Origin: Williamsia soli
GTDB lineage: Bacteria; Actinomycetota; Actinomycetes; Mycobacteriales; Mycobacteriaceae
NCBI RefSeq assembly: GCF_017377795.1
Contig: NZ_JAFRDR010000005.1
Location: 1-64,000 of the forward strand
DNA: 64,000 nt
Direction of reading: 5' to 3'
Shown here: positions 53,458-62,409 of the stretch, one piece after another
Layout: each line of letters begins with the position of its first letter
Numbering within the stretch: the stretch's first letter is position 1
Position numbers and translations under genes: made by a program
The notes under the pieces: model-generated
Seen by the model: only the letters and a program-made list of their open reading frames with translations
Database searches by the model: none
Told to the model about the DNA's origin: nothing

Positions 53458-54087
53458 TCAGGCAGGCACGATGAGGCCGGAGCCCTGCGCCTGAGCCTTG
53501 GCGAAACGCTCGGAGGCGTCGGCCCAGTTGACCACGTTCCACCACGCCTTGACGTAGTCCGGCTTGACGTTCTGGTAGTCGAGGTAAAAGGCGTGCTCCC
53601 ACATGTCGAGCATCACGATGGGGATGAAACCAACGGAAGTATTTCCGTGCTGATCGGTCAGCTGCTCGATCAGGAGCTTGCCCTCGATGGTGTCGTAGCC
53701 GAGGATCGCCCAGCCGCTGCCCTGCAGTGTGGTGGCTGCGGCGGTGAAGTGCGCCTGGAACTTGTCGAATCCGCCGAACTGATCGTCGATGGCTGCGGCG
53801 AGGTCGCCCTCTGGCTTGTCGCCACCGTTGGGCGACAGGTTCTTCCAGAAGATCGAGTGGTTGGTGTGCCCGCCGAGGTGGAAGGCGAGGTTGGCCGACA
53901 GCTGAAAGACCTTGTCAGCGATGGTGCCGTCTTCGCGAGCAGCCGCAAGCTTCTCGACTGCGGTGTTCACGCCCTTGACGTAGGTGGCGTGGTGCTTGCT
54001 GTGGTGCAGCTCCATGATCCTGCCGGAGATGTGCGGCTCGAGAGCTGCGTAGTCGTAGTCCAGATCCGGCAAGGTGTAGTCAGACAC
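53458..54087 (-). CDS. sodA: superoxide dismutase, Fe/Mn family
   Basis: The 209-residue enzyme dismutates superoxide to peroxide and oxygen. The metal ligands are in ELHHSKHH (His28), [11 protein letters not shown] (His about 76) and LDMWEHAFY (Asp and His). It begins [18 protein letters not shown], without a signal peptide, like mycobacterial SodA. The terminator follows. Metal preference cannot be decided with certainty from these residues. Confidence 0.96.
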
Positions 54088-54662: not shown

Positions 54663-56189
54663 TTGGCACGCCCGACTGCAGCACAGCTGTACGCCGCCTA
54701 CGGTGACAACGCCGACAGCGACGTCACCCTTCGCCTCCTGCGCTCGCGAAACGCGGTTCCCTACCTCGCGATCATGGCGGCCCGGCTGGCCGACGGTCAG
54801 GTCGACGGTGACCATCTGAGCGCGGGCGTGGAGAAAGACCTTGCGGACCTCGCCGACCATTGGCTGCAGCGCGGCTGGGAGCTGCCCACCGCGGACGACC
54901 TGCTCGACCGCTGGGTGCGCGCGGGGTACCTGGCCCGCACCCTGGTGGCCGACACTCAGATCGAGCGTTACCAGCTCACGCGCGGGGCCACCCAGGCCAT
55001 CGCGCAGGTGCAGGCAGTGCGCCAGAACCGCACGGTCGCCACCGAGACGGTGCTCGAGCTGGTGATGTCGCGATTGTCCAACATCGCGGTGTCGATCAAT
55101 CCCGATCCCGGTGAGCACATCCGAGACATCGACCAGAAGATCAGCGAATTGACCGCGCGCAGAGAAGAACTCGCAGCCGGCGCGATTCCGGCGGTCGACA
55201 CCCGCCGGGTTCTCGACGACATCAGGATGGTCAGTTCGCTGGCCGAACGGATGCCGGCAGACATCATCGGCTACGGGGAGAAGATGCGGGAGAACTCACG
55301 CGCCCTGCTCACCAGCGGCCTCGACGCCGAGCAGGGATCGCACGCGGACGTGCTCAACCGGATGTTCGATGGCCACGATGCGCTCGCCGACTCGGACGAG
55401 GGCAAGGCGTTCGACACGTTCTACACGCTGATCGCCGACCACCGGCTCCGCGAGGACCTCGAGGCGAGTATCGCGGCGATCGCCTCGGGGCTGCCGAACC
55501 TGCCCCACGACCTGCTCGACACCCTCACCGGGTTCATCGACCGGATGTGGGACGAGGTGCAGTCGGTCGACGAGGTGCGGGGGCAGGTCTATCGCCGGAT
55601 CAACACGTTCGTCAAGGACGGCGACTTCCTGCACTACCGCGCGCTGCGTAGCCAGATTTCCGACGCCCAGCGCGCCGCCGCTGCCGCATTTGTTCATGCG
55701 GGTCCGGGCAAGGACATGGGCATCGCCGTTCCGATGAGCGCCGCAAGCTCCAATTCCGTTGGAGCCCTGGTCTTTCACGACGGGATCATCGATTCACCCG
55801 GTGCGGTCGCCGATACTGCGGGTGAGATCAGGATCGACCCCGCCGACCTGGTCGGTGTGGAGTCGATCGACTGGCACGCCCTGACCGATGCGGTGAACGA
55901 TGCCATCGCATCGGGACCGGCCGGTATCGACGACGTCCTGGTGTTGCTGCCGACCGCGAGAACCGGCGATGTGATCGGGATCTGGTCGCTGGCGCAGCGG
56001 CACGGTGCGACCGACGACACCCGCGCCGAGATCACCGTCCTGGCCCATACAGCCCGCGGTCTACGTGAGATCAACATGCCCGCCGTGCTTTTCACGCATT
56101 CGCTGCCCGACCCCATAACCGCGCAGCCACATGAGGTGATGCACTTGCTGGACGAGCCAGACGAAGCGGGACAGAAGGTGGTCAGGTGA
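54663..56189 (+). CDS. jetA: JetA-like protein (DUF3375), Wadjet/MksBEF SMC module
   Basis: The 508-residue protein is a DUF3375-type (JetA/MksF) subunit: LRLLRSRNAVPYLAIMAARLADG, QLTRGATQAIAQVQAV and LHYRALRSQIS fit the family's helical kleisin-like structure. TTG 54663 has GGAGG eight bases upstream; the frame is open back to 54489 but without a better start. It overlaps jetB by 4 bases (GTGA). In Wadjet it bridges the SMC-like subunit to the rest of the complex and recognises circular DNA. Confidence 0.88.
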   Translation: MARPTAAQLYAAYGDNADSDVTLRLLRSRNAVPYLAIMAARLADGQVDGDHLSAGVEKDLADLADHWLQRGWELPTADDLLDRWVRAGYLARTLVADTQIERYQLTRGATQAIAQVQAVRQNRTVATETVLELVMSRLSNIAVSINPDPGEHIRDIDQKISELTARREELAAGAIPAVDTRRVLDDIRMVSSLAERMPADIIGYGEKMRENSRALLTSGLDAEQGSHADVLNRMFDGHDALADSDEGKAFDTFYTLIADHRLREDLEASIAAIASGLPNLPHDLLDTLTGFIDRMWDEVQSVDEVRGQVYRRINTFVKDGDFLHYRALRSQISDAQRAAAAAFVHAGPGKDMGIAVPMSAASSNSVGALVFHDGIIDSPGAVADTAGEIRIDPADLVGVESIDWHALTDAVNDAIASGPAGIDDVLVLLPTARTGDVIGIWSLAQRHGATDDTRAEITVLAHTARGLREINMPAVLFTHSLPDPITAQPHEVMHLLDEPDEAGQKVVR

Positions 56190-56971
56190 GTACTCCGGAA
56201 GAGCCGACGGGCGAGCAGGAAATCCAGCAGCAGGAAGGCGAAGACCTGTTCGTCGACGATCCGGGTGCACTGACCGAACCATCGGTCGATCTGTCGCACT
56301 TCGCCTTCGACGGCTCGGAGCCGGTCGGGACGATCAGCGACCCGCAGGTCGACGCGCGATTCGATGGCGACACCTCCGCGCTACCCGCGCCGGTCTGTTA
56401 CGCCCTGCAGGAGCTGGTCGCCGCAGCGCACGTCTCGGTACGCTCGCGCAACTGGAAGACCATCGAGGTGCACGAAGAGGTCATCAGATCCCGGCTCTCC
56501 GAACTGAACCTGCAGCTCGAGATCAATCGGGAACACAAGTACGCCTTCACCCGGCAGGTCTCGGAAAACGATCCGAGGCAACGGAATATCCTGCGCGCAC
56601 AGACCCTCACCCTGGCCGCCTCGGTGCTGGCCCTGTTCCTGCGTCAGAAGTATCTGACGAGTGCAGATGAGTCGGTGGTCGCAGAACGCGGCGAGATCAT
56701 GGACCACATGCTCACCTACAAGCCGGTGTCGGACACCGACGAGGCCGGGTTCATCAAGCGTATTGACGCCGCCATCAACCAACTGGAGTCGCGCAAGATC
56801 ATCCGCGCACTGCCGGGCACCGATCGCTACGTGGTGCACGGGGTGATCGCTTCGTTGCTCGGGCCGGAACAGGTCGCCGCGTACACCGAGGCCTATCGGC
56901 GACTTGCCGGGGAGCATGCCGAAGACGGAACCGACCTGACCGAACTCGACGACCGGGAGCGCACGCCATGA
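56186..56971 (+). CDS. jetB: JetB-like protein (DUF4194)
   Basis: The 261-residue protein has an acidic N-terminus and a DUF4194 domain (about residues 70-240): LQELVAAAHVSVRSRNW, LAASVLALFLRQKYL, FIKRIDAAINQLESRKII. It corresponds to JetB/MksE, a kite-type subunit that stabilises the SMC complex. GTG 56186 overlaps the jetA stop; its end overlaps jetC by 4 bases, so the three are translationally coupled. Confidence 0.9.
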   Translation: MSTPEEPTGEQEIQQQEGEDLFVDDPGALTEPSVDLSHFAFDGSEPVGTISDPQVDARFDGDTSALPAPVCYALQELVAAAHVSVRSRNWKTIEVHEEVIRSRLSELNLQLEINREHKYAFTRQVSENDPRQRNILRAQTLTLAASVLALFLRQKYLTSADESVVAERGEIMDHMLTYKPVSDTDEAGFIKRIDAAINQLESRKIIRALPGTDRYVVHGVIASLLGPEQVAAYTEAYRRLAGEHAEDGTDLTELDDRERTP

Positions 56972-59900
56972 CCGAGATCCTCGAGACCCCGGTACGAGCC
57001 GGCAAGCGGACCATGAACATCGGCCAGTTCCGCTTGACCCGAATCCAATTGGTCAACTGGGGCACGTTCGACGGTTACAAGGACTATCCGATCGACGAGC
57101 GCGGCGTGATGCTCACCGGACCGTCGGGGTCGGGCAAGTCATCGATGATGGACGGTCACTCGGTGGTCTTGCTGCCCACCTACGACCAGGTGTTCAACGC
57201 CTCCGCCGATCTGTCCGCGAAGGGCGCCAAGAAGGCCGCTCGTTCCATGGCTGATTACGTCCGTGGGGCGTGGGCCGAGAACGATGACCGCTACAACCAG
57301 TCGCAGGTGCAGTACCTGCGGGCCGACGGAGCGACGTGGTCGGCGATCGCCGCAACGTACGACAACGGTGCCGGATCGTCCACCACGGCGGTGGCCATCA
57401 AGTGGTTCCCGGGTTCGGGTACGGACGGCAGTTCGCTGCGCTCGTGGTATCAGCTGCACACCGGACATTTCGACCTGCTGTCGTTGAACGTCTGGGCGCA
57501 GAGCGGTTTCGACATCCGCCGGTACCGCGCGGCGAATCCTGCGGTGGAGTGCTTCGACGTGCAGAGTGCGTATCAGGAGGCCCTGCGCCGCCGGGTCGGT
57601 ATCGGGCAGTCATCGGCCGCGCTGTCGTTGATGGGCAAGGCGAAGGCGATGAAGAACGTCGGCGACCTCAACCTGTTCATCCGCACCTACATGCTCGACC
57701 GGCCGGAGACGTACGCGAAAGCAGAACGGCTGGTGGAGAACTTCACCCAGCTCGACGAGGCCTACCAGGCGGCGGCCCGCGCCAACGCGCAGGAGCAGGT
57801 GCTGCGCCCGATCCCTGATGCGTGGGACACCTATTGCAGCGCAGAGGAATCGACGACCCGCGCCGGGACCCTGCTGGGTCCCCCGATGCGGGCGTTCATG
57901 CGCGAGCACCGGATGACGCTGCTGCAAGCGCGCCTGGACCAGATCGACACCGACCGTGAGCGTCTCGACAACGAGGTGGCCAAGTGGGAGAATCTCGCCG
58001 ACGAGCGCGAGGAGCGCCACACGTCGTTGCGTGACCAACTGACCTCGGAGAAGGGCGAACTGACCACCCTCGAATCCGAGCTGAAGTCGTTCGAGCAGCA
58101 GGTCACCGCGCGAAACCGGGCGTACGAGCGGTACGCGACTCTGGTCGGTGGTCTCGGGGAACAGACCCCGGAGACGCAGGACGAGTTCGCGGCGCTGCGG
58201 TTGCGTGCCCCGGAAATCGCCCGTGCGGCAAGGGAATCTGCAGACAAGCTGGCCACCACGGCGCACAGCTTCTTCGCCGCGGAGACCGATGCCCGCCGTG
58301 AGTTCGAGGCCGCGGTCGAGGAACTCGCCAGCCTCAACACCCGACGATCCCTGTTGCCCCGCGAGGTGTTGGGCCAGCGGGATGGGATCGCCCAGGCCAC
58401 GGGTGTGCCTGCCGATGAGCTGCCGTTCGCCGCGGAGCTGATCGACGTCGATCCGGCCGAAAAGGATCGGTGGGCGGGCGCCGCCGAGCGTGTGCTGCGG
58501 GGGTTGGGCATGACAATGCTCGTACCCGAGGCGCACCGGAAGACAATTGGTGATTTCGTGAACCGGACCAATCTGGGTGGGGTGCTCGAATACCGTGTCT
58601 ATCAAGAATATTCATCCAGCGCCGCCGATCCGGTTCCGGGTTCGCTGGCGGAGAAGCTGCTGGTGGACGAACGCCATCCGGCAGGCGGCTGGCTTGCGGG
58701 TGTGGTGGCACGCAGCGCAGAACACATCTGTGTCGATCTTCCGGCGCAGCTCGACCAGCATCCGCTCGCCGTCACACCGCAGGGCCTGGTGAAGTCGGGT
58801 CGAGACCGATTCCGCAAGGACGATCGACGCTCGGTCTCCGATCGCACGCAATGGATTCTCGGGTCGAACACCGACGGCAAGCGGACCGCACTCGAGGAAC
58901 TGCGCGATCACCGGGAAGCACTGTTCGCCGAGGCTCGTCAGGCGGCCCAGGACAAGCGAGATCTGTTGGAGGCCAATCGCGAACGCGCAAAGAACGCGGA
59001 CGCGCTCGCGGCGTACGCCTCGTGGGCCGAGCTCAACTGGTGGTCCTCCCGTCGCGACGCCGACGAACTCAACGCTCGGATCGACCGCGTGCGGGAGAAT
59101 CGTGTCGATCTCGCGGAACTCGAAGAGCAGGTCGAGATCGCCCGCGCCGACTGGAGAGAGGCCGTCGCCCGGGTCGGTGCGCTCGGTGACCAACTGGGCC
59201 ACGTCGGTTCGGACTGGGACCGGTGGTTTGCCGAAGCCGAGCAGGTGAAGGCCGAGAGCACGAAACTCGACGATGCCGACCGGGAGTATCTCGCGGGTGT
59301 GCTGGCGGAAACCCTGTCGGCAGGCGGCAAGACCCTGACCCTCGACAACTACGGCGAGGTGCGGTCGGATCTGCGAAATGCCTTGGAAGCTGTGGTCGGA
59401 AAGGCCAACGCCGAACGTGACGGCGCGGAGAACCGGATCGTGCGAGCGGGCGAGGCGTTCCTGCGGGAGTGGCCGGAGGCGTCGGCGAACCTCAGTGCAA
59501 GTGTCGAATACGCGGCCGATCTGGTGTCCATCCACCAGAGTCTGGTCGAGCACGGACTGGCCTCGACGCAACAGCGGTTCCGGCAGCTGATCACCACCGA
59601 CATCAGCCATTCGGTGTCCAACCTGTACAAGGAGATCGCGGACACCAACAAGCGGATCACCCGCGGTATCGCCGAGGTCAACATCGGCTTGCAGCGGGTC
59701 GACTTCAACGAGGACACCTACCTGCAGATCGCCCAACTGCACAATCCGACGGACGAGTCCCGGGAGTTCGCCAAGATCGTCGACTCGATGATCCGGGATG
59801 CTCCGGCGGCCAAGTCCGGTGACGGTGCCGTGCTGGCGCGGCAGTTCTACCGCATCCGCGGTCTCGTCGCCCGGCTCACCGGAACCGATGCGGAGAATCG

Positions 59901-60369
59901 CCGGTGGTGCGACAACGTGCTGGACGTTCGCAACAGCTACACCTTCTACGGTAAAGAACTCAGCTCCGGAGCCCCCGCCGATGACCCTCCGGTACACACC
60001 TACCGCAACACCGCCTCCAACTCCGGTGGTGAGCAGGAGAAGCTCGTCGCGTTCTGTCTTGCTGCGGCACTGAGCTTTTCTCTCTCGCACGGAGAAGACC
60101 ACCGACCGGGCTTCGCTCCGTTGATGCTGGACGAGGCATTCAGCAAATCGGATGAGACCTTCAGCTCGCAGTCGCTGCGGGCATTCGAGCAGTTCGGTTT
60201 CCAGTTGATCATCGCGGCCCCGATCCGCATGGTCGGCATCGTCGAACCGTTCATCGGTCAGGTGATCCTGGTGGACAAGCAGACCGGAGAAGGTGGCGCT
60301 CGTTCGGATGCTCGCGCAGCGACCTTCGGTGAGCTCGCAGCAGCCCGGGCGACCGGCGGAAGAAAGTAG
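56968..60369 (+). CDS. jetC: JetC-like SMC ATPase (MukB/SbcC-type)
   Basis: The 1133-residue ATPase has Walker A GPSGSGKS (51-58), a long coiled-coil middle (about 290-950) and the ABC signature NSGGEQEKLVAFC and Walker B LMLDEAFSKSD near the C-terminus (about 1010-1060). It is the SMC-type motor of JetABC/MksBEF complexes that extrude DNA loops. All ATPase motifs are complete. The start overlaps jetB by 4 bases. Confidence 0.93.
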   Translation: MTEILETPVRAGKRTMNIGQFRLTRIQLVNWGTFDGYKDYPIDERGVMLTGPSGSGKSSMMDGHSVVLLPTYDQVFNASADLSAKGAKKAARSMADYVRGAWAENDDRYNQSQVQYLRADGATWSAIAATYDNGAGSSTTAVAIKWFPGSGTDGSSLRSWYQLHTGHFDLLSLNVWAQSGFDIRRYRAANPAVECFDVQSAYQEALRRRVGIGQSSAALSLMGKAKAMKNVGDLNLFIRTYMLDRPETYAKAERLVENFTQLDEAYQAAARANAQEQVLRPIPDAWDTYCSAEESTTRAGTLLGPPMRAFMREHRMTLLQARLDQIDTDRERLDNEVAKWENLADEREERHTSLRDQLTSEKGELTTLESELKSFEQQVTARNRAYERYATLVGGLGEQTPETQDEFAALRLRAPEIARAARESADKLATTAHSFFAAETDARREFEAAVEELASLNTRRSLLPREVLGQRDGIAQATGVPADELPFAAELIDVDPAEKDRWAGAAERVLRGLGMTMLVPEAHRKTIGDFVNRTNLGGVLEYRVYQEYSSSAADPVPGSLAEKLLVDERHPAGGWLAGVVARSAEHICVDLPAQLDQHPLAVTPQGLVKSGRDRFRKDDRRSVSDRTQWILGSNTDGKRTALEELRDHREALFAEARQAAQDKRDLLEANRERAKNADALAAYASWAELNWWSSRRDADELNARIDRVRENRVDLAELEEQVEIARADWREAVARVGALGDQLGHVGSDWDRWFAEAEQVKAESTKLDDADREYLAGVLAETLSAGGKTLTLDNYGEVRSDLRNALEAVVGKANAERDGAENRIVRAGEAFLREWPEASANLSASVEYAADLVSIHQSLVEHGLASTQQRFRQLITTDISHSVSNLYKEIADTNKRITRGIAEVNIGLQRVDFNEDTYLQIAQLHNPTDESREFAKIVDSMIRDAPAAKSGDGAVLARQFYRIRGLVARLTGTDAENRRWCDNVLDVRNSYTFYGKELSSGAPADDPPVHTYRNTASNSGGEQEKLVAFCLAAALSFSLSHGEDHRPGFAPLMLDEAFSKSDETFSSQSLRAFEQFGFQLIIAAPIRMVGIVEPFIGQVILVDKQTGEGGARSDARAATFGELAAARATGGRK

Positions 60370-60372
60370 ATC

Positions 60373-61455
60373 GTGGCCCGGCAGATCACGCTGCGACAGT
60401 GGAATCGGACGCTGCTGCAGCGCCAGCATCTACTCGAACGCGTCGACGAGGACATCCTGGAGGTGCTCGATCGCTGCGTCGGACTGCAGTCCCAGGATCC
60501 TCGCGCCGCGTTCTACGGACTGTGGTCCCGTATCACTGATTTCGATCCGCTCGACCTCGACGAACTGATGACGGACCGCGAAGTGATCCGGATGGCACTG
60601 CTGCGGAGCACCGTCTTCCTGATGGATGCCGAGGACGCCCGCTGGGTCCGTCCGCTCGCCCAGGCGAGTCTGATTGGTGAGTTGCGGTCCAACCACGCGA
60701 AAAGGATTGCCGGTGCCGATCTTGCCGAGGTCGCCGAGTATGGCCGACAATTGCTCTCGGGCACACAGCTTCCCGTCAAGTCGCTGAAGGACTCGTTGGG
60801 GGCTCGCTGGCCCGATGCCGACAGTTCATCCCTGGTCACCGTGGTCCGATGCCTGGTGCCACTGGTGCAGGTGCCGCCGCGGGGGACCTGGACGGGGTCG
60901 GCGACCACCACATACAGCCTCTACGACGAGTGGTGCGGCCCTGGGGAATCGTCTGTCACGGGCGAGGATGCGATCAAGGATCTGATCAGGCTGTACCTGC
61001 GCGGGTTCGGGCCGGCCAGCATCAAAGGTATCCAGACCTGGGCCGGCATGACCAGGCTGCGGCCGATCGTGGAGGCCATGGAAGCCGACTGGGAGCTGGG
61101 GAAGCTCGAAGGTCCGGACGGCGAAGAGCTGTTCGACATCGAGGGTGTTCCACTCGCCGACGAGGACGCCGCGGCGCCGGCCAGGCTGGTGGCCCCTTTC
61201 GACAACATCGTGCTGGCCCAGGGACCTGATCGCGGGCGGGTCGTCGACGACGACGTCTTCACGAAGCTCGCCACCCCGAACGGTCGCTCGCCTGGTTTCG
61301 TGCTGATCGATGGCCGCGTCGCAGGCATGTGGCACCCGAGAAAGAACGGCAAGGCCACCGCGATCGAGGTGGACGTCTTCTCGAAGATCTCCGCCGCCGA
61401 TCGGCGGGCCGTTGAGGACGAGCGCGAGCAGCTCGTCGATTTCTGCAACACCTGA
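60373..61455 (+). CDS. AlkZ/HTH_42-type winged-helix DNA glycosylase-like protein
   Basis: The 360-residue protein matches the HTH_42/AlkZ fold (RQITLRQWNRTLLQRQHLL, then GLQSQDPRAAFYGLWSRI). Residues Q39 and Q41 correspond to the QxQ pattern that supplies catalysis in AlkZ-type glycosylases, which open DNA cross-links and remove alkylated bases. The rest has winged-helix repeats and a C-terminal beta-barrel (SPGFVLIDGRVAGMWHP). It starts 3 bases after jetC, a strong sign that it belongs to the same operon. Confidence 0.85.
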   Translation: MARQITLRQWNRTLLQRQHLLERVDEDILEVLDRCVGLQSQDPRAAFYGLWSRITDFDPLDLDELMTDREVIRMALLRSTVFLMDAEDARWVRPLAQASLIGELRSNHAKRIAGADLAEVAEYGRQLLSGTQLPVKSLKDSLGARWPDADSSSLVTVVRCLVPLVQVPPRGTWTGSATTTYSLYDEWCGPGESSVTGEDAIKDLIRLYLRGFGPASIKGIQTWAGMTRLRPIVEAMEADWELGKLEGPDGEELFDIEGVPLADEDAAAPARLVAPFDNIVLAQGPDRGRVVDDDVFTKLATPNGRSPGFVLIDGRVAGMWHPRKNGKATAIEVDVFSKISAADRRAVEDEREQLVDFCNT

Positions 61456-61479: not shown

Positions 61480-62235
61480 TCAGTCGTCGGGCAGATTGCC
61501 CGAGCGCGGGTTCCGGTGGGTGATGCAGTACCGGCGACCGATGGGATCTGCCATCACGGTCCAAAAGCGTTGCTGCTCGAGCACGGTCGCACCCCAGCCC
61601 TCGTGCCGGGCCACCTCTTCCTCCGGGTGTGTGCTCGCCAGGTCGAGATGACCCCCCACCTCGGGTGAGCCCACCCGTTGCAACAAGATGCGCAACGGCA
61701 TGTCCTTAGGTCGCTGCAGGTTGCGGAACTCCGGCATCACCCCCTGGCGCCATGCCCAGTTCGTCAGGGTCGCCCAGAACGCGCATTCGGCGTCGAACGC
61801 GGCCGCGGGTACATCGATGCACAACTGGTCGATGATGCTGATGGTGTCCCCGGGCCAGCGAATGGGCCGCGAGCGTTCGTGCTCGCCCTGCCAGGGCACC
61901 AGGCAGAACGGGAAGCCGGCAGGTGAGCTCAGGACCACCACGCTCTTGCTCTCAGTGACCACTTTCGCGCCGAGTGCTTTCGCGTGGGCGGTGGACTCGC
62001 GTAGATCGTCGACGTGGATGTCGAGGTGAACGCCGCCGGGTCCTTCTTTGACGCGCTGCACCCTCAGGTGTGGATCGCCGTTGAAGGGTTCGAGCGATGC
62101 GAACTCCCGGTCCGCGCCACGGGCCGGTGAGACGGTGCTCCCGGCAATGGCGCGCCAGAACGTGACCTCGGGCCCGAAGCTGTCGGCAGGGAGGTCGAGG
62201 AAGGCGGTGAGCCATTTGATCGCCACGGGCGTCAC
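61480..62235 (-). CDS. two-domain VOC family protein
   Basis: The 251-residue protein has two VOC modules (FLDLPADSFGPEVTFWRAIAG and QLCIDVPAAAFDAECAFWATL). The end is FWTVMADPIGRRYCITHRNP. The GTG at 62235 is supported by GAGG four bases upstream. The frame is open much further upstream because it is antisense to sppA, and that extension is not coding. It is convergent with the AlkZ-like gene (24-base gap). Confidence 0.8.
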   Translation of the reverse strand: MTPVAIKWLTAFLDLPADSFGPEVTFWRAIAGSTVSPARGADREFASLEPFNGDPHLRVQRVKEGPGGVHLDIHVDDLRESTAHAKALGAKVVTESKSVVVLSSPAGFPFCLVPWQGEHERSRPIRWPGDTISIIDQLCIDVPAAAFDAECAFWATLTNWAWRQGVMPEFRNLQRPKDMPLRILLQRVGSPEVGGHLDLASTHPEEEVARHEGWGATVLEQQRFWTVMADPIGRRYCITHRNPRSGNLPDD

Positions 62236-62409
62236 CGGGCCTCGGTCTGCGCGTCGTGACTGCCCCTGACGCGCGATGCGGGGTGAGTGCGGCCGAGCGG
62301 CGGAACGATGACCATGACGGTCAGTCTTGCAGTATCGGTATTCCGCGCGGTCGGTACGGCGGCATCGGCAACGGCGATCCTGATCGGAGACCCGCATAGG
62401 CTGGCAGAC

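Follow-up and report, generated by a model that had tools for sequence, protein, structure and literature searches.

Wadjet type I systems, also known as JetABCD, MksBEFG or EptABCD, combine a kleisin (JetA), a KITE protein (JetB) and a structural maintenance of chromosomes (SMC) ATPase (JetC) with the nuclease JetD, while MksBEF complexes are Muk-like condensins without MksG. AlkZ and the AlkZ-like (AZL) enzymes are DNA glycosylases of the HTH_42 type. We analysed a window of 64,000 nucleotides of Williamsia soli (contig NZ_JAFRDR010000005.1, positions 1 to 64,000), in which four plus-strand genes at 54663-61455 stand in the order jetA-jetB-jetC-alkZ-like. We favour, with moderate confidence, the reading that this locus encodes a nuclease-free, MksBEF-like JetABC coupled in an operon to a repair glycosylase, AlkZ, which works independently of JetABC. 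It is likelier that AlkZ is a partner within the operon than that it serves as a substitute weapon. A functional link between JetABC and AlkZ is possible, and it is the gene order that argues for their joint function.

The operon comprises jetA (DUF3375, kleisin) at 54663..56189, jetB (DUF4194, KITE/MksE-like) at 56186..56971, jetC (MukB/MksB-like SMC ATPase) at 56968..60369 and a gene for a 360-residue HTH_42/AlkZ-like DNA glycosylase at 60373..61455, all on the plus strand. JetA matched PF11855 (E 8e-95) and the PADLOC profile JetA1 (E 2e-260); JetB matched PF13835 (E 3e-31), PADLOC JetB1 (E 6e-77) and the PDB entry for JetB, 8dk1 (E 1e-6); JetC matched PADLOC JetC1 (E 0) and PDB JetC 8as8 (E 9e-78), with AAA_29 and SbcC_Walker_B domains at E of about 1e-20. 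The open frame of jetA reaches back to 54489, and the likelier start is the TTG at 54663, which has GGAGG upstream, because the match to the JetA1 profile starts at residue 61 of the longer frame, and alignments with several orthologues start at residue 59. As the initial annotation had described, jetA and jetB (stop 56189, start 56186) and jetB and jetC (stop 56971, start 56968) each overlap by 4 nucleotides, and a QxQ-containing gene of the HTH_42/AlkZ type begins, with a GTG, 3 nucleotides after the jetC stop at 60369; the coordinates and the PF06224 match agree on this. The JetC stretches GPSGSGKSS, SGGEQEK and LMLDEAFSKSD, which we take to be Walker A, signature and Walker B, were intact and invariant across a 14-sequence alignment.

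The fourth protein matched PF06224 over its full length (residues 32-357 against positions 1-329 of 329, E 3e-77) and AlkZ (PDB 5uuj, E 1e-13) over nearly its full length, with QSQ at residues 39-41 aligned to the QAQ of AlkZ; PADLOC returned no match for it. Both glutamines were present in all 20 JetABC-linked copies described below, with serine between them in 18 and alanine in two; the family motif is (Q/H)-aliphatic-Q. Ratios of non-synonymous to synonymous substitution rates (dN/dS) were well below 1 in the tested pairs. Within the genus they were 0.02-0.06 for JetC and 0.09-0.15 for AlkZ, the latter 2.4-4.8 times the former, and in comparisons with two Williamsia from a different genus group they were 0.19 and 0.32-0.33, respectively. 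Both jetC and alkZ are under purifying selection in the pairs tested. Characterised AZL enzymes act in base-excision repair, removing adducts with lesion-specific activity, and relatives of AlkZ unhook interstrand cross-links, according to PMC9040887.

JetD was missing from the genome as well as from the operon. Neither of its domains, PF09983 and PF11795, had a match in the W. soli genome (6.07 Mb, 25 contigs, completeness 100), and both searches found JetD in the positive control, C. glutamicum. A JetD encoded elsewhere in the genome was thus rejected, including the homologue beyond the window that the initial annotation had named as fatal to its proposal. In our family sample of 151 genomes, PF09983 matched 21, all outside the set of 20 with a close JetC, and PF11795 matched none of 22 genomes (the same 20 and two Tsukamurella); neither JetD domain, whose absence the initial annotation had proposed to test, occurred in any of the 20 genomes in which an HTH_42 gene adjoins jetC. 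The locus has the type I families of JetA, JetB and JetC in one operon and lacks the JetD nuclease (DUF3322 plus DUF2220/Toprim). SMC, kleisin and KITE with intact ATPase motifs and no nuclease subunit is also what an MksBEF-like complex has. The genome also has a canonical SMC, whose gene lies on a different contig.

JetC relatives at E 1e-3 or better were found at 63 places in 60 genomes of the family sample, and 60 of these places were compared with wide flanks (G136, G096 and a fragment in G060 were left out). alkZ lay directly downstream of jetC in all 20 genomes with a JetC identity of at least 73%, the window's own included, with an in-frame start -4 to +22 nucleotides from the jetC stop. 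These genomes span Williamsia, Jongsikchunia and Gordonia jinhuaensis, and five genera. Since the adjacency is common to all 20 relatives, it is no single-strain accident, which was one part of the other outcome that would have undone the original proposal. The remaining 40 loci had no AlkZ match in the stretch; 16 carried JetD and 24 neither gene, so that JetABC with neither nearby is common in the family (24/60). Among the best 80 of 281 JetC loci in named genomes, 17 had AlkZ, 44 had JetD and 19 had neither, although the fourth gene is not judgeable in two of the 19 (L217 and L229), which end inside or just after JetC. The 17 AlkZ loci come from Williamsia, Jongsikchunia kroppenstedtii, G. 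jinhuaensis and one record labelled Kitasatospora arboriphila; they are genomes already counted among the 20 and add no independent evidence. Across 152 JetC loci, and 29 more with short flanks, AlkZ adjacency was confined to the Williamsia/Jongsikchunia/G. jinhuaensis group. We also looked for a common fourth gene in other JetD-less systems, and there was none across 32 Tsukamurella, Phytoactinopolyspora and 33%-type loci; a PIG-L gene was common to the Tsukamurella loci only. Two records are probably mislabelled: the K. arboriphila contig (L182) is Williamsia muralis-like (JetC 91%), and the JetC on a contig named Acidobacteriaceae (L217) has 57% identity to the window's.

In a JetC tree of 60 rows, the loci with adjacent AlkZ formed one clade (SH-aLRT 100) with Tsukamurella as its sister; the program warned of long branches meeting, including the branch that joins the whole JetC group to the outer rows. 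The Tsukamurella JetC is 62% identical to the window's, and neither JetD nor AlkZ was adjacent to it in any of 11 named loci. AlkZ was also absent from all nine Tsukamurella loci of the family sample, and PF09983 from those nine genomes. Among the next relatives (43-47% JetC identity, within the best 80 of 281), JetD was the fourth gene in 12 of 18 loci, found in Amycolatopsis, Nocardia, Nocardiopsis, Saccharothrix, Lentzea, Actinopolyspora, Actinoplanes and one metagenome-assembled genome; the loci without adjacent JetD belonged to Phytoactinopolyspora and Actinocatenispora. JetD was probably ancestral in this JetC lineage. It appears to have been lost repeatedly. Its loss seems to have preceded the arrival of AlkZ next to jetC, because the Tsukamurella sister is already without JetD, the JetB motif described below and AlkZ.

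Some JetC records deserve separate mention. jetC was split into two open frames in L216 (Tsukamurella sp. PLM1) and in L168 and L218 (Phytoactinopolyspora endophytica), which would be assembly errors or broken genes. An in-frame stop in the Tsukamurella JetC matches was considered and rejected, since by the gene calls JetC terminates where the match ends. One JetC, 61% identical to the window's, is apparently plasmid-borne (NZ_LR134444.1:1333-4688, a 22-kb Tsukamurella tyrosinosolvens plasmid record). A second JetABC type, with a JetC about 31-34% identical (L030-L039 and L169-L175; genera g9, g29 and g31), had JetD adjacent in one of 17 loci (L174).

According to a review (PMC10586767), an IFDR motif at the N-terminus of JetB provides part of the contact between JetD and JetABC. 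Near the N-terminus of JetB we found F-x-x-[VI]-F in all 11 distinct JetD-linked sequences and in none of 57 without adjacent JetD; the window's JetB lacks it. These counts are limited to JetBs with the core [RK]F-x-GD...LP, for want of which 56 of the 152 JetC loci were dropped, and counting the dropped JetD-linked locus L174, whose JetB is of another type and has no motif, gives 11 of 12. The 57 comprise the 20 AlkZ-linked sequences and 37 others: 14 from Tsukamurella, five of the Phytoactinopolyspora type, two from Actinocatenispora, 15 of the 33% type, and L217, whose contig ends in jetC, so that its JetD status is not judgeable. The association of motif and JetD has a Fisher P of 7e-13, which is overstated because the rows are related; the motif is nonetheless absent in each JetD-less branch. 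We infer that F-x-x-[VI]-F is the JetD docking site on JetB, and if it is, AlkZ cannot occupy JetD's seat there.

A JetABC without its nuclease might still restrict plasmids, for instance by blocking their segregation, with alkZ as a passenger. Plasmid restriction by EptC of M. smegmatis is cited in PMC10123090 and PMC10586767, and the ATPase motifs of JetC are intact here. However, the restricting systems described have a fourth subunit, with all four required in B. subtilis (PMC10586767), whereas JetD and its JetB motif are gone from this locus. We regard restriction of this kind as quite improbable.

The glycosylase had also been proposed to stand in JetD's place as an alternative effector: JetABC would reel in small circular or foreign DNA, AlkZ would depurinate it, and host apurinic/apyrimidinic (AP) endonucleases would cut the abasic sites. 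The positional part of that claim stood. alkZ holds exactly the position that JetD has in JetABCD relatives from this JetC lineage, and it does so in a tightly coupled operon conserved in 20 of 20 genomes and with no JetD domain. There is also a precedent in Brig1, a glycosylase of another fold and a known anti-phage effector (PMC11078745). The takeover of JetD's job was not supported. JetD and its JetB motif are already missing in the AlkZ-less Tsukamurella, JetD thus being gone before AlkZ arrived, and the motif is likewise absent here. AlkZ glycosylases act on damaged bases and are not known to read the shape of DNA, and the lesion-specific activity of the characterised enzymes points the same way. 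Nine of the window's proteins around the operon had no PADLOC match, so that no defence island was seen there.

Further evidence came from the same chromosomal site in a sister genus designated g9, which we take to be Gordonia because a Gordonia hydrophobica record (L241) shares with g9 locus L076 a 2.7-kb stretch of 79% DNA identity. All nine sampled g9 genomes read sodA(-) msrA(+) alkZ(+), with JetABC absent from the site. Their alkZ orthologues are 44-59% identical and start -1 to +51 nucleotides from the msrA stop, and a search of five of the nine gaps detected no JetABC remnant (best E 0.13). Another JetC occurs elsewhere in seven of these genomes; G008 and G141 are without any JetC match, yet have an alkZ with intact QxQ. 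Separately, the most diverged g9 copy (L101, genome G057) reads LPAGD at the QxQ position, and its catalytic residues look lost. In all 20 JetABC-AlkZ loci the operon has sodA upstream, as msrA-alkZ does in all nine g9 loci. In six of the 20, msrA lies between sodA and jetA, and in L056 and L059 it is the gene nearest to jetA, so that JetABC occupies the msrA/alkZ junction there. Outgroup sodA regions had neither JetABC nor alkZ (8/8 stretches).

The AlkZ tree puts g9 inside the JetABC-AlkZ group, with a poorly resolved base. A seven-protein tree does the same, at a fork whose support (87/94) is below the program's threshold, and it rejects the JetABC-AlkZ group as one clade (approximately unbiased test, p-AU 0.019), with a simple model and with four of the seven proteins present for at most 18 of 30 rows. 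LysX was dropped as a species marker because it has a paralogue and very uneven identities. The common ancestor probably had JetABC-alkZ already, with g9 later losing JetABC and keeping alkZ, a history that has moderate support; alternatively, JetABC may have been inserted after g9 split off, or transferred between genera into one site. Because alkZ is kept in g9 without JetABC, AlkZ seems to be useful alone and to have no need of JetABC. The proposed dependence of AlkZ retention on JetABC was not borne out, as 9/9 g9 genomes keep the gene. That AlkZ persists throughout a genus which lacks this JetABC, two of whose genomes have no JetC match of any kind, also counts against AlkZ as an alternative effector, which we consider very doubtful.

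The two partners might instead form a functional repair pair, in which JetABC would handle chromosome folding where DNA is damaged or cross-linked and AlkZ would unhook the adduct, with co-expression and no requirement for a physical complex. Strict operon retention and the stress-gene surroundings (sodA always, msrA in 6/20 JetABC loci and 9/9 g9 loci) fit such a pair, as does the unhooking of interstrand cross-links by AlkZ relatives (PMC9040887). In g9, however, one partner occurs in the absence of the other, Tsukamurella regularly has JetABC but no AlkZ, and AlkZ evolves faster than JetC. We judge the repair pair unlikely.

Several observations weigh against the independent operation that we favour, or against the history behind it. 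The jetC-alkZ coupling is kept in 20/20 genomes at -4 to +22 nucleotides while the flanking sodA-jetA and alkZ-S49 peptidase intervals vary, and such retention exceeds what a chance neighbour would need. A stretch [DE]-D-L-F-x-D occurs in 17 of the 20 AlkZ-linked JetB N-termini (L041-L053, L055 and L058-L060) and was not seen in the Tsukamurella JetBs inspected. Two of five Phytoactinopolyspora-type (g97) genomes with a JetD-less 47% JetC hold a JetD beside a second JetC, and in those two JetD could in principle act in trans. The GltB tree alone does not place g9, with 32% of bootstrap trees keeping the JetABC group as one clade. After the loss of JetD, a cutting effector could also have been exchanged for a base-removing one, JetABC loading or exposing AlkZ on trapped or cross-linked DNA as an SMC-guided glycosylase for defence or cross-link repair; we give this little credence.

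According to the reading that we favour, a Wadjet-derived type I JetABC would have lost the nuclease JetD together with the JetD-associated motif of JetB, and with them plasmid cutting. By analogy with MksBEF, this JetABC probably works as a loop-extruding, DNA-organising and non-cutting complex. AlkZ, as an AZL-like monofunctional glycosylase of the AlkZ family, would most likely remove bulky or cross-linked purine adducts, leaving abasic sites for base-excision repair, and would do so without needing JetABC. The genes would be co-transcribed as one tightly coupled operon at the sodA site, inherited in the Williamsia/Jongsikchunia/Gordonia group.

The annotated surroundings of the operon are ordinary. 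The divergent sodA (53458..54087, minus strand; PF02777/PF00081), outside the operon, marks the conserved site, and a Glyoxalase_6 protein gene (61483-62280, minus strand) is convergent with alkZ; in three other genomes of the same genus (L042-L044) a short-chain dehydrogenase/reductase (SDR) gene takes its place. Annotated neighbours are glutamate synthase genes, an SDR gene, a GDT1 transporter gene, sodA, the glyoxalase-like gene and an S49 peptidase gene. No biosynthetic gene was noticed among these few, where no systematic search was made. A promoter and terminator scan gave one promoter-like site against 0.8 expected and six terminator-like sites against 3.0 expected.

We found no description of a JetABC-AlkZ operon in titles and abstract openings of the literature, with subscription papers mostly outside the search. 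The loci can be arranged in a natural series that starts with JetABCD (Nocardia, Amycolatopsis, Actinoplanes), continues with JetABC alone (Tsukamurella) and JetABC-AlkZ (Williamsia) and ends with AlkZ alone (g9, taken as Gordonia), which allows tests of how a plasmid-cutting SMC turns nuclease-free. The N-terminal F-x-x-V/I-F, which JetBs of this type lack at every locus without adjacent JetD, is a concrete candidate for the JetD-associated element of JetB.

Compared with known systems, Brig1 is a precedent for a glycosylase as defence effector; unlike AlkZ it belongs to the uracil-DNA glycosylase (UDG) superfamily and forms a single-gene system, and its paper reports a soil clone in which a gene for a UDG-type glycosylase lies close to a Wadjet system (PMC11078745). 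The fourth protein resembles the AlkZ/AZL HTH_42 glycosylases such as 5uuj in its nearly full-length match and its QxQ, whereas the Streptomyces AZL proteins have an aliphatic middle residue where 18 of 20 JetABC-linked copies have serine, and the gene here lies in an SMC operon. Like Wadjet type I, the locus matches the JetA1, JetB1 and JetC1 profiles in the order A-B-C with intact SMC ATPase motifs, and JetD is the fourth gene in relatives within this JetC lineage; unlike Wadjet type I, the locus has no JetD, no F-x-x-V/I-F in JetB and an AlkZ-like fourth gene. It shares with MksBEF a set of kleisin, KITE and SMC genes only, and differs in its coupling to alkZ and in what appears to be a separate loss of the nuclease within an actinobacterial JetC lineage.

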